From positions 1-64,000 of the forward strand of contig CALDZJ010000078.1 of NCBI GenBank assembly GCA_937944055.1: DNA of 64,000 nucleotides, written 5' to 3'. Of the stretch, positions 3,085 through 62,528 are shown in pieces (the stretch's first letter is position 1; each line of letters opens with the position of its first letter). The stretch comes from an uncultured Verrucomicrobiales bacterium (GTDB lineage Bacteria > Verrucomicrobiota > Verrucomicrobiia > Verrucomicrobiales > Akkermansiaceae). Below the pieces are notes generated by a model. That model was given only the letters and a program-made list of their open reading frames with translations, did no database searches and was not told the origin of the DNA. The position numbers were made by a program, and so were the translations under genes.

Positions 3085-4203
3085 TTATTGGTCGAGGTTT
3101 TGAGCGATGAGATCAGCAAGACCGACGGGTGCTTCCTCTTCCACTCCGAGACGTGGAGCAGCCGGAGCACCGAGAGCAGGTCCCGTGAGCAATGATGGGT
3201 CAAGATTCATACCAAGGCCCAGACCAAGCTCCTGAAGCTTGTCCTTAATCTCGTTCAGAGACTTCTTACCAAAGTTACGATACTTGAGCATCTCAGCCTC
3301 CGTTTTAAGGGCAAGTTGGCCGACGGAAGTGATATTGGCGTTGTTCAGGCAGTTTGCGGCACGCACGGAAAGCTCAATCTCGTTAACACTCATGTTAAGG
3401 AGTTTCTTAAGGGCGGCATTTTCCTCGGACTGCTCGGCAGGAGCTTCCTCGAAGCCGACGGCATCATCGTCATAGTTGACGAAGACATCAAGGTGGTGAC
3501 GAAGAATCGCGGAGGCTTGTAGAAGCGCATCGTGCGGCTCGATCCGGCCATCAGTCCAGATATCGAGGATGACCTTATCGAAGTCCGTCATTTGACCGAC
3601 CCGAGTGGCACCTACCGAATACTTCACGCGGGAAACTGGTGAGAAAATGGAGTCAATCGCGATGACGCCGATCGGTGCGCCCTCGCGCTTATTCTCATCA
3701 CCCGTCTTGAAGCCACGGCCCACTTGGACCTCAATCTCGGCATCAAATTTCACCTTCTTATCGAGGGTGCAGATGACCTGGTCTTTATTGACAACCTCGT
3801 AGATATTGTCGTCTTGAATATCACCAGCGGTCACCACGCCAGACTTCTCAACCTTGAGGCTGAGAACGCGGGGCTCCTTCGCATGCGCGATAAATTTGAC
3901 CTTCTTCAAGTTGAGGACAATGTCGGTGACATCCTCGATGACTCCGGGGAGAGTCGCAAATTCGTGTTGAACGCCAGCAATGCGCACCGAGGTGATGGCA
4001 GCGCCTTCCAAGGAGGAGAGGAGCACGCGGCGCAATGAGTTCCCGATGGTGTGACCGAATCCCTGCTCGAATGGCTCGGCAGTGAATTGGGCATAAGTAT
4101 CGGTGGCGGTATCCTCATCTTTAATGAGGCGGCTGGGGAGCTCGAAGCGGTTCAGTTTTACTGGGCCTTCTTTCTCTTCAACTTCGGTAGTTTCTTCTGA
4201 CAT
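3085..4203 (-). CDS. rpoA: DNA-directed RNA polymerase subunit alpha
   Basis: EQGFGHTIGNSLRRVLLSSLEGAAITSVRI N-terminal domain; ELSVRAANCLNNANITSVGQL...KYRNFGKKSLNEIKDKL C-terminal domain. Confidence 0.97.
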   Translation of the reverse strand: MSEETTEVEEKEGPVKLNRFELPSRLIKDEDTATDTYAQFTAEPFEQGFGHTIGNSLRRVLLSSLEGAAITSVRIAGVQHEFATLPGVIEDVTDIVLNLKKVKFIAHAKEPRVLSLKVEKSGVVTAGDIQDDNIYEVVNKDQVICTLDKKVKFDAEIEVQVGRGFKTGDENKREGAPIGVIAIDSIFSPVSRVKYSVGATRVGQMTDFDKVILDIWTDGRIEPHDALLQASAILRHHLDVFVNYDDDAVGFEEAPAEQSEENAALKKLLNMSVNEIELSVRAANCLNNANITSVGQLALKTEAEMLKYRNFGKKSLNEIKDKLQELGLGLGMNLDPSLLTGPALGAPAAPRLGVEEEAPVGLADLIAQNLDQ

Positions 4204-58666: not shown

Positions 58667-61600
58667 GTGGAACTCCTCGCTAAATCAAATTTCTCTTTCC
58701 TCCGAGGGGCCTCATCACCAGAGGCCCTCGTGCAGCGCGCTGCTGAGCTGGGCCACCGATCACTGGGCCTGATCGATCACATGGGCTTCTACGGCTCCGC
58801 CCGCGCTCATGCCGCCGCCCGGAGAGCGGGCATCCAAGCCATCACAGGAGCCACCCTCGAGTCCGTTTCCAACTTCGATCAACTGACGATTCTCAACAAA
58901 TCTCGCCTCGGATACCAAAACCTCTCTCGCTTCATCACGAGCCTGCATTGTGAAGAAGATGTGAACACCTTTGAGGGGCACGACCTCGCCGGAAATCACG
59001 CCATTCTTACGGCCGATTCACTCCGCCAAGCCAGCAAGGAAAATCTGCACGCCGCAGCTCAGCGTCTCCTCGCACACTTCGGCCCCGCAAATCTCTCCAT
59101 CGCCCTCTCCCACCACTCCCGCCGCGGAGAAGAGACGCTCAATCACACCCTCCGCGATCTTGCCGCATTTCTCAAAATCCCCATCATCGCAAGCAATGCG
59201 CCTCTTTACGCACAGAGATCAGAGCGCCTTCTCGCCGATGCCTTCACCTGCCTAAGGGAGCATAAATCGCTCGATGACGCCGGACGACTCCTCGAAAGCA
59301 ATGGCGAGCGCTCTTTGAAATCCCCCAAAGCGATTCAGGACTTATTCACAGGTTATTCACAGGATTTTAGCAATGCCCAAGCCCTCTCAGAGGAATGCGG
59401 TGATTTCTCGCTCGAGAAACTCGGCTATCGCTTTCCTTCCTTTCGCGATCCCGAGAGCGGAAACTTATTCACAGCTTCTCAACACGCCGGCTATCTCCGC
59501 TATATCGTCAAAAAAGGCCTCGCTTCTCGATTCCGTAAATTAAGTGAAAAACACCTTCAACAAATTGAAATTGAGCTATCGACAATTGAAAAACTCGGAT
59601 TTCAAGGCTACTTTCTCATCGTCTGGGATCTTGTGCGCTTCGCTCGCTCACAGGGGATTCTTTGCCAAGGCAGAGGATCGGCAGCCAACTCTTTAGTGTG
59701 TTATGCCATCGGCGTCACGAGTGTCGATCCAGTTGCGAGCGGCCTCCTCTTTGAGCGCTTTCTCTCTGAGAATCGTCAATCGTGGCCAGATATTGACATC
59801 GATTTCCCCTCCGGTGAACGGCGGGAAGCGGTGATCCAATACCTCTTCAAAAAATACGCTCCACGAGGAGCCGCCATGACCGCGAATGTCATCACCTACA
59901 AACCCAGATCGGCCTTCCGTGAAATGTCTAAAATTCTGGGATTCCCAGACAGCATCGCCAGTCGCTTCTCAGAACTTTGCACCTCAACAAAGGTGCAGGA
60001 CCGAACTCGGGAGGAAGAGCTCTCGATGAGTCATGATGACCCGGGCGACCGTGTGATGGACCTAAGCAGCACAGTCGAGGAGTGCGGGATCCCCTCCTCT
60101 CACCCCCGTTTCAAGCCGCTCATGAGGCTCTACCAAAGCATCCTCCACTGCCCTCGCCACCTCGGCCAGCATTCCGGAGGGATGGTCTTTTGTGACGAAG
60201 GCTTAGACCACATTGTTCCCCTGCAAGCCGCCGCGATGGAGAAGCGGACCGTGCTGCAATGGGACAAAGATGATTGTGAGGACCTCGGCATCGTCAAGGT
60301 GGATCTCCTCGGCTTAGGCATGCTGGCCGCGATGGAAGATAGCTTGAAAATCTGCGAGCGCCGAGGCCGCCCAGTCCAGCTCTCCCAGATCCCCAAGGAC
60401 GATCCTGCAACTTACGATTTACTATGCCGAGCTGATACGATCGGCACCTTTCAGGTCGAGTCCCGCGCTCAGATGGCCACCCTCCCCATCATGCAGCCGC
60501 GGGAGTTTTACGATCTCGCAGTGGAAGTCGCGATCATCCGCCCCGGTCCCATCGTGGGAGACTTAGTGCATCCCTACCTGAATCGCCGCAGCGGACGAGA
60601 GCCCATTGACTCGATTCACCCAGATTTTGAACCCATTTTGAAGCGGACTCTCGGTGTTCCACTCTTCCAAGAGCAGGTGCTGCGGATGGCGATGGTGATT
60701 GCCGGATTCACCGGAGCAGAGGCGGATGAACTCCGCAAGGCGATGTCTTTTAAAAGATCTGATGAGCGCATGAATGCCATCGTTGAAAAGCTCAAAACAC
60801 GGATGCAAGCGCGCGGAGTCACGCCCGAGGTCCAGCAAAGAGTGATCGACTCCATCGGCTCCTTCGCACTCTACGGCTTCCCGGAATCGCACGCCATCTC
60901 CTTCGCCCTCATCGCATACGCATCCTGCTGGCTCAAGGTGCATCGCCCCGCAGAATTCTACTGCGGACTCATCAACAACCAACCCATGGGCTTCTACTCG
61001 GTGAACACCTTGATCCAAGACGCAAAGCGCCACGGGATCCGCACGCAGCCGATCTCCATCATCCACTCACAGCTCGATACGGGGGTCATTGATAATCATC
61101 GGCTCCGCCTCGGCCTGCACCGCCTCAAGGAGCTACGGCAGCGCACGAAAGAGCAGATCATCGAGGAACGCTCGAAGGCACACTTCGAATCGCTCGATGA
61201 TTTCCTACGCCGAGTGCGGCCCAATGCCAAAGAACGTCGCATCCTTGCCTCCTCCGGAGCCCTCAATGATCTTCACGGGGTCAAGCACCGCCGGGATGCC
61301 CTATGGCTCGCTGAGCAACTCCCGGAGGATGACCTCTTCGCCCAACAAGCCTCAGAGCAAACTCTCAAAGGAGAAACAAAGCGAGTGACCGAGCCGGCGA
61401 ACGAGGGAACTTTAGAAATGATGACGCCCATCGAGCGGCTCCAGACAGATTTTGCCCTCCAAGGCTCCACCACCGGTCCCCACCCCATGCGCCTCTGGCG
61501 CGAGCAGAATAAACAAGAACTGGCGACCTCTGCCAGCCTTCTCACCCTGCCTCACGGGAGCCCCCTGAGCATTGCCGGTTTAGTCATTTGCCGTCAACGC

Positions 61601-61840
61601 CCCGGCACCGCAAAAGGCCACTGCTTCATATCCTTAGAAGATGAATACGGGATCGCCAACCTCTTCATCCCCCGGAAAACTTTCCAAAATTTTAAGCCCC
61701 TCATCACCAGCGAGCCCTTCCTCCTCGTGCAAGGGCGCTTACAAATCAGCGAGGGAAGACAAGCCAGCATCTACGTGACCTCCCTGCAAGGCCTCGGTTT
61801 CTCGCATGATCTCGCCGCCACCTCTCATGACTTTCACTAA
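58667..61840 (+). CDS. dnaE2: Error-prone DNA polymerase III alpha subunit (DnaE2/ImuC)
   Basis: ELLAKSNFSFLRGASSPEALVQRAAELGHRSLGLID; GRGSAANSLVCYAIGVTSVDP; SWPDIDIDFPSGERREAVIQY; KVDLLGLGMLAAM; FPESHAISFALIAYASCWLKVHRPAEFYC; C-terminal OB fold. Confidence 0.92.
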   Translation: MELLAKSNFSFLRGASSPEALVQRAAELGHRSLGLIDHMGFYGSARAHAAARRAGIQAITGATLESVSNFDQLTILNKSRLGYQNLSRFITSLHCEEDVNTFEGHDLAGNHAILTADSLRQASKENLHAAAQRLLAHFGPANLSIALSHHSRRGEETLNHTLRDLAAFLKIPIIASNAPLYAQRSERLLADAFTCLREHKSLDDAGRLLESNGERSLKSPKAIQDLFTGYSQDFSNAQALSEECGDFSLEKLGYRFPSFRDPESGNLFTASQHAGYLRYIVKKGLASRFRKLSEKHLQQIEIELSTIEKLGFQGYFLIVWDLVRFARSQGILCQGRGSAANSLVCYAIGVTSVDPVASGLLFERFLSENRQSWPDIDIDFPSGERREAVIQYLFKKYAPRGAAMTANVITYKPRSAFREMSKILGFPDSIASRFSELCTSTKVQDRTREEELSMSHDDPGDRVMDLSSTVEECGIPSSHPRFKPLMRLYQSILHCPRHLGQHSGGMVFCDEGLDHIVPLQAAAMEKRTVLQWDKDDCEDLGIVKVDLLGLGMLAAMEDSLKICERRGRPVQLSQIPKDDPATYDLLCRADTIGTFQVESRAQMATLPIMQPREFYDLAVEVAIIRPGPIVGDLVHPYLNRRSGREPIDSIHPDFEPILKRTLGVPLFQEQVLRMAMVIAGFTGAEADELRKAMSFKRSDERMNAIVEKLKTRMQARGVTPEVQQRVIDSIGSFALYGFPESHAISFALIAYASCWLKVHRPAEFYCGLINNQPMGFYSVNTLIQDAKRHGIRTQPISIIHSQLDTGVIDNHRLRLGLHRLKELRQRTKEQIIEERSKAHFESLDDFLRRVRPNAKERRILASSGALNDLHGVKHRRDALWLAEQLPEDDLFAQQASEQTLKGETKRVTEPANEGTLEMMTPIERLQTDFALQGSTTGPHPMRLWREQNKQELATSASLLTLPHGSPLSIAGLVICRQRPGTAKGHCFISLEDEYGIANLFIPRKTFQNFKPLITSEPFLLVQGRLQISEGRQASIYVTSLQGLGFSHDLAATSHDFH
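59342..59473 (+). promoter_or_regulatory. Cluster of three consensus DnaA boxes inside dnaE2
   Basis: TTATTCACA at 59342-59350, 59353-59361 and 59465-59473, all perfect TTATNCACA and same orientation; first two 11 bp apart. Confidence 0.6.
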
Positions 61841-61956: not shown

Positions 61957-62049
61957 GGAGAGTGCTGTGTGCCTGGTGGTCGCCGCGGTTTTCAAAACCG
62001 TTGAAGGGCAATCTGTCCTTGGTGGGTTCAATTCCTTCCCTCTCCGCCA
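61957..62049 (+). tRNA. selC: tRNA-Sec-like / opal-decoding tRNA (anticodon TCA), G73 and CCA encoded
   Basis: GGAGAGTGCTGTGTGCCTGGTGGTCGCCGCGGTTTTCAAAACCGTTGAAGGGCAATCTGTCCTTGGTGGGTTCAATTCCTTCCCTCTCCGCCA: anticodon stem GCGGT/ACCGT with loop TTTCAAA, long variable arm AAGGGC/GTCCTT, tetraloop TGGT in a long D-stem. Some mismatches (T7-C66, T-stem T-T). Confidence 0.75.
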
Positions 62050-62453: not shown

Positions 62454-62528
62454 TGGAGGCGGAGGCGAGAATCGAACTCGCGAATACAGGTTTTGCAAAC
62501 CCGCGCCTTACCACTTGGCTACTCCGCC
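62454..62528 (-). tRNA. tRNA-Cys (GCA), CCA encoded
   Basis: GGCGGAGTAGCCAAGTGGTAAGGCGCGGGTTTGCAAAACCTGTATTCGCGAGTTCGATTCTCGCCTCCGCCTCCA. Confidence 0.96.

Follow-up and report, generated by a model that had tools for sequence, protein, structure and literature searches.

A predicted 7/5 selenocysteine tRNA with a 12-bp acceptor/T branch in the order Verrucomicrobiales

Introduction

A 64,000-nt window, the whole stretch of DNA analysed here, from an uncultured Verrucomicrobiales bacterium contains a tRNA gene with a UCA anticodon that raises two linked questions: can a tRNA with the features of tRNA-Sec serve in selenocysteine (Sec) decoding when its acceptor/T branch is one nucleotide shorter than the canonical 8/5 form, and how is that shorter branch folded? 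A preliminary description of the gene offered three options, a divergent Sec tRNA, an opal suppressor or a decaying gene. A 2016 study by Mukai reportedly describes 12-bp tRNA-Sec in Cloacimonetes. Forms of 12 bp, in which the acceptor stem has 7 bp plus a bulged nucleotide, are documented in Gammaproteobacteria, Clostridiales, Spirochaetes and other taxa (Santesmasses et al. 2017, PMC5330540), and the available part of Cravedi et al. 2015 (PMC4607533) presents a covariation-supported 7/5 tRNA-Sec, together with a full sel system, in Epsilonproteobacteria. Searches of the literature library yielded no paper dealing with tRNA-Sec in Verrucomicrobia, a group that might be mentioned in Mukai 2016 and 2017.

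Methods

The window's genome comprises 2.59 Mb in 108 contigs and is 92% complete. Structure was assigned by comparative evidence instead of single-sequence folding, in which the acceptor/D junction departs from the standard cloverleaf and the z-score is mild (-1.9). Weaker matches to the Rfam model RF01852 in related genomes correspond to tRNA-Ser(UGA) or tRNA-Leu and were left out; a match in genome G055 was assumed to be of the same kind.

Results

The tRNA-Sec (selC) gene occupies positions 61957-62049 on the + strand of the window. ARAGORN calls this segment tRNA-SeC(tca), and RF01852 matches it with 59.2 bits (E 1.8e-9), above the gathering score of 47. Sequence and fold reveal the hallmarks of tRNA-Sec, namely the UCA anticodon, a UGGU D-loop, a long variable arm, G73 and an encoded CCA, and the position, the D-arm bulge and the other landmarks given in the preliminary description were all recovered. 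The parts of the tRNA are as follows.

61957..61964, + strand: 5′ acceptor strand GGAGAG-U-G, with six pairs, an unpaired U (61963) and a G (61964) opposite C66
61967..61983, + strand: D-arm GUG[U]GCC / UGGU loop / GGUCGC, with 6 pairs and one bulged U on the 5′ strand, as read from the sequence
61985..62003, + strand: anticodon arm, with UCA at 61992-61994 and an extra U at 62002 (43a-like bulge)
62004..62020, + strand: long variable arm, up to 7 bp in the RNA fold
62022..62038, + strand: T-arm GUGGG / UUCAAUU / CCUUC, with a 5-bp T-stem containing G51-U63 and a U50-U64 mismatch
62039..62049, + strand: 3′ acceptor strand CCUCUCC (7 nt), discriminator G73 and CCA end

The fold also allows the D-arm bulge to be placed on the 3′ strand. 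The variable arm is long, as first described, with seven pairs in place of the six then counted; its stem differs in sequence between relatives and largely maintains its pairing. Twelve nucleotides (CCTTCCCTCTCC) separate the T-loop from G73, where the canonical 8/5 form has 13, and this spacing is shared by the Verrucomicrobiales copies that were checked, all with 7 nt between T-stem and G73. The U-U apposition noticed earlier in the T-stem is likewise real.

The gene lies downstream of a long ORF (58667-61840) whose translation resembles, by eye, a DnaE-type DNA polymerase, and is followed by a tRNA-Cys gene on the - strand (62454-62528). It is the single tRNA-Sec above the cut-off in the window's genome, and its 90-nt body is identical in several other genomes. 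A proposed extension of the acceptor helix by pairing of the flanking TGGC with GCCA is possible in this window and was rejected as a chance match, relatives with an identical gene carrying other 5′ flanks such as TTGC or TGCC. As judged from its sequence, the locus is confirmed as an intact tRNA-Sec gene of an uncultured Verrucomicrobiales bacterium.

The folding of the short branch was addressed by comparing 61 distinct sequences of the class, in which the 12-nt 3′ strand is kept. Acceptor pairs 1:72 to 6:67 are standard in all 61. The seventh nucleotide (U in 44, A in 16 and C in 1) pairs with C66 in none of them, and the eighth, a G in 57, is able to do so in 57 of the 61. On the T side, the outer pair 49:65 is standard throughout and displays compensatory changes from G49-C65 to A-U (L174, L200) or C-G (L204, L206); pair 52:62 also covaries, and the T-stem is fully paired in L174 (AUAGG/CCUAU), L182 (GUAGG/CCUAC), L183 and L026. 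Because of the compensatory changes at 49:65, the T-stem would have five pairs and the branch would be 7/5 instead of 8/4. The comparison thus supports a predicted 7/5 fold with one unpaired nucleotide after pair 6:67, GGAGAG[U]G / C-CUCUCC. What had been described as a T7-C66 mismatch makes better sense as an unpaired U followed by a G that pairs with C66, and from the earlier choice between a 7/5 and an imperfect 8/4 arrangement the former is retained, with its unpaired acceptor nucleotide added.

An 8/4 structure akin to allo-tRNA, in which a T-stem nucleotide is bulged and the eighth nucleotide pairs with position 65, would accord with the G-C combination at these two positions in 56 of the 61 sequences and with reported 8/4 forms of tRNA-Sec (PMC7609411). 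We consider it quite improbable, and rejected it, since 49:65 covaries as a T-stem pair: position 65 varies with position 49 and not with the eighth nucleotide (A49-U65 in L174 and L200, C49-G65 in L204 and L206), and L174, L182, L183 and L026 have fully paired 5-bp T-stems. Within the preferred 12-nt fold, C66 could pair with G48 in place of the eighth nucleotide in 60 of the 61 sequences, and the branch could on this pairing adopt a 6/6 arrangement.

The preliminary description had proposed a search for selA, selB, selD and UGA-containing genes, counting absence of the three sel genes against a Sec function. All three are present and full-length in the window's genome. The selA product (409 bits, 457 aa) has about 70 residues ahead of the Pfam SelA domain; the selB product (307 bits, 644 aa) has GTPase, SelB beta-barrel and winged-helix domains; and selD scores 380 bits. 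Within the selD frame there is one TGA (SCGGUASKLG), aligned with the position of Cys17, the catalytic cysteine, in the solved SelD structure 3u0o. A SelW/Rdx (selW-like) gene of the same genome also has one TGA, placed in a CxxU motif, and exactly one TGA is present in this gene in 18 of 18 same-genus genomes with a copy, its own included. In a check for SECIS elements, a hairpin lies downstream of the selD UGA (z -2.5) and the region after the selW UGA folds weakly. No complete copy of the formate dehydrogenase alpha gene was found above the cut-off in the window's genome. The sel genes and the UGA-containing selD and selW-like genes are, at the level of sequence, features of a live Sec-decoding trait.

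On contig C14 of the same genome, a SelO gene (L199, 57-1457, + strand) and the UGA-containing SelW-like gene (1483-1695, - strand) are convergent neighbours.

Co-occurrence was evaluated in 58 genomes, comprising that of the window and its relatives, of which 34 have a true tRNA-Sec and 24 do not. SelA is found in 33 of the 34 with the tRNA versus 5 of the 24 without it, and four of these five are less than 90% complete. Among the matches listed, the same form of the tRNA occurs in Roseibacillus persicicus, Roseibacillus ishigakijimensis, Rubritalea marina and Rubritalea profundi, as well as in many Akkermansiaceae/Verrucomicrobiales metagenome-assembled genomes (MAGs). In the sequences at hand, the predicted short acceptor branch is common to the whole order Verrucomicrobiales.

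U50-U64 is an uncommon trait. It is present in nearly all copies in the order, often beside U51-U63, a frequency judged from the genome-search set, a separate pattern scan having required CCTTCC in the 3′ T-strand. The mismatch is not universal, L026 and three class-level copies having paired T-stems. In 19 non-Sec tRNAs from the same and related genomes, T-stems are fully paired, G-U pairs included.

In other classes of the phylum the tRNA-Sec is of the 13-nt 8/5 type, for example GGAGGUGG/CCACCUCC with T-stem GUAGG/CCUAU (L168) or, in a second instance, GGGAGUGA/UCACUCCC. Set against a perfect 8-bp stem, the GGAGAG[U]G/C-CUCUCC of Verrucomicrobiia lacks an A opposite U7. Since the sister classes have the 8/5 form, the base opposite U7 was likely lost from an 8/5 ancestor (GGAGAGUG/CACUCUCC to GGAGAG[U]G/C-CUCUCC), and base loss followed by free drift of the seventh position would be the simplest history.

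Several further copies bear on the diversity of these branches. UCA tRNA-Sec genes from other classes of the phylum, L185, L189 and L192, also have 12 nt; in L185 the 7-bp acceptor stem is fully paired with no extra nucleotide (GGAGAAG/CUUCUCU), and this 12-bp form apparently had a separate origin. In another group of the phylum, the 8/5 copies L169-L173, L175 and L178-L180 have a T-stem that seems bulged (GUUGGG or GUCGGG versus CCCAC). In the Candidatus Zixiibacteriota copies L050, L098 and L100, which have 12 nt, the T-stem is paired and the branch can be read as 7/5 with an A bulged after pair 5 (GGAAG[A]GG/CCCUUCC).

In E. coli, mobile elements integrate at selC. Six copies in our set (L063, L068, L076, L078, L094 and L097) consist of the tRNA-Sec 3′ half only, from about the anticodon stem onward, with unrelated DNA upstream; the MAG that carries L094 also has a full copy, L096, and in L078 an ORF that by eye resembles a tyrosine recombinase (1168-2184) adjoins the partial gene. 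This pattern suggests that tRNA-Sec is a mobile-element integration site in Verrucomicrobiales as well. In L089, two near-identical tRNA-Sec copies (1210-1260 and 3732-3782) share a contig and are separated by about 2.5 kb; the 3′ acceptor strand of the first has extra bases (CCTTCCCTCCCCTCTCCG) that possibly mark an element boundary.

Discussion

Taken on its sequence and genomic context, the gene is almost certainly a functional selC that belongs to a complete bacterial system for Sec decoding, encoding a 7/5 (12-bp) tRNA-Sec with an extra 5′ nucleotide. SerRS would serylate the tRNA through its long variable arm and G73, SelA would convert the serine to selenocysteine with selenophosphate from SelD, and SelB would bring Sec-tRNA to the in-frame UGA of mRNAs such as those of selD and the selW-like gene; we infer both the charging and the use by SelA and SelB. 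SelA binding has been described as requiring a 13-bp acceptor domain (PMC11231383), and the 12-bp tRNA must therefore be accommodated somehow.

The other two options of the preliminary description fare poorly, and both were rejected on the complete sel system, the selenoprotein genes and conservation. An opal suppressor serine tRNA, or an allo-tRNA, that reads UGA as serine via EF-Tu would share the UCA anticodon and the SerRS identity features, and EF-Tu prefers acceptor branches of 12 bp (PMC11231383); this explanation is nevertheless very improbable given the complete selA/selB/selD set, the UGA conserved at catalytic Cys positions, the co-occurrence with SelA and a U50-U64 apposition that breaks one of the T-stem pairs setting EF-Tu affinity. 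That the gene is a decaying relic, as its T-stem mismatches and unpaired acceptor nucleotide might suggest, is scarcely credible when identical features are kept throughout the order, the body is identical in several separate genomes and pairs 1:72 to 6:67 are intact in 61 of 61 sequences.

EF-Tu affinity is set by pairs 49:65, 50:64 and 51:63, and in E. coli tRNA-Sec the pairs C7-G66, G49-U65 and C50-G64 reject EF-Tu (PMC11231383, PMC9976931). We hypothesize that the T-stem mismatch could act as an EF-Tu antideterminant in a tRNA whose acceptor branch is 12 bp. The broader proposal that U-U mismatches at 50:64 and 51:63 replaced the usual length-based and sequence-based rejection of EF-Tu, with SelA and SelB adapted to the 12-bp branch, is a doubtful one.

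The tRNA studied here shares with the 12-bp forms of PMC5330540 the 7 nt between T-stem and G73, an extra unpaired 5′ acceptor nucleotide, bulges in the anticodon stem (43a-like) and D-stem, and the presence of Sec genes. It differs in the position of the extra nucleotide, which is 3a, 4a, 5a or 7a there and follows pair 6:67 here, and in its T-stem U50-U64; Verrucomicrobia are absent from the taxa listed in that work and are not mentioned in it. A covariation-backed 7/5 branch and a full sel system also link it to the Epsilonproteobacterial tRNA-Sec as presented in the available part of PMC4607533, which concerns another phylum and in that part has no description of T-stem U-U mismatches that we saw. 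With the 8/5 tRNA-Sec of E. coli it has in common UCA, a long variable arm, a long D-stem with a 4-nt loop and G73, whereas the E. coli branch is 13 bp and its C7-G66, G49-U65 and C50-G64 are absent here. Allo-tRNA and 8/4 tRNA-Sec-like tRNAs (reviewed in PMC7609411) resemble it in their 12-nt acceptor/T branch and long variable arm, but here covariation indicates a 5-bp T-stem and the full Sec system is present.

The structural class is thus one already described in other bacteria, and Verrucomicrobiales is an addition to the lineages with 12-bp tRNA-Sec. The order, including Roseibacillus and Rubritalea, joins the known users of this form. The presence of 8/5 and 7/5 forms within one phylum makes the change placeable on a tree and testable. 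The 12-bp tRNA-Sec also provides a natural setting in which to test how SelB and EF-Tu distinguish Sec-tRNA with no difference in length to rely on. In annotation, standard gene callers will truncate or miss selD and selW at UGA in these genomes.
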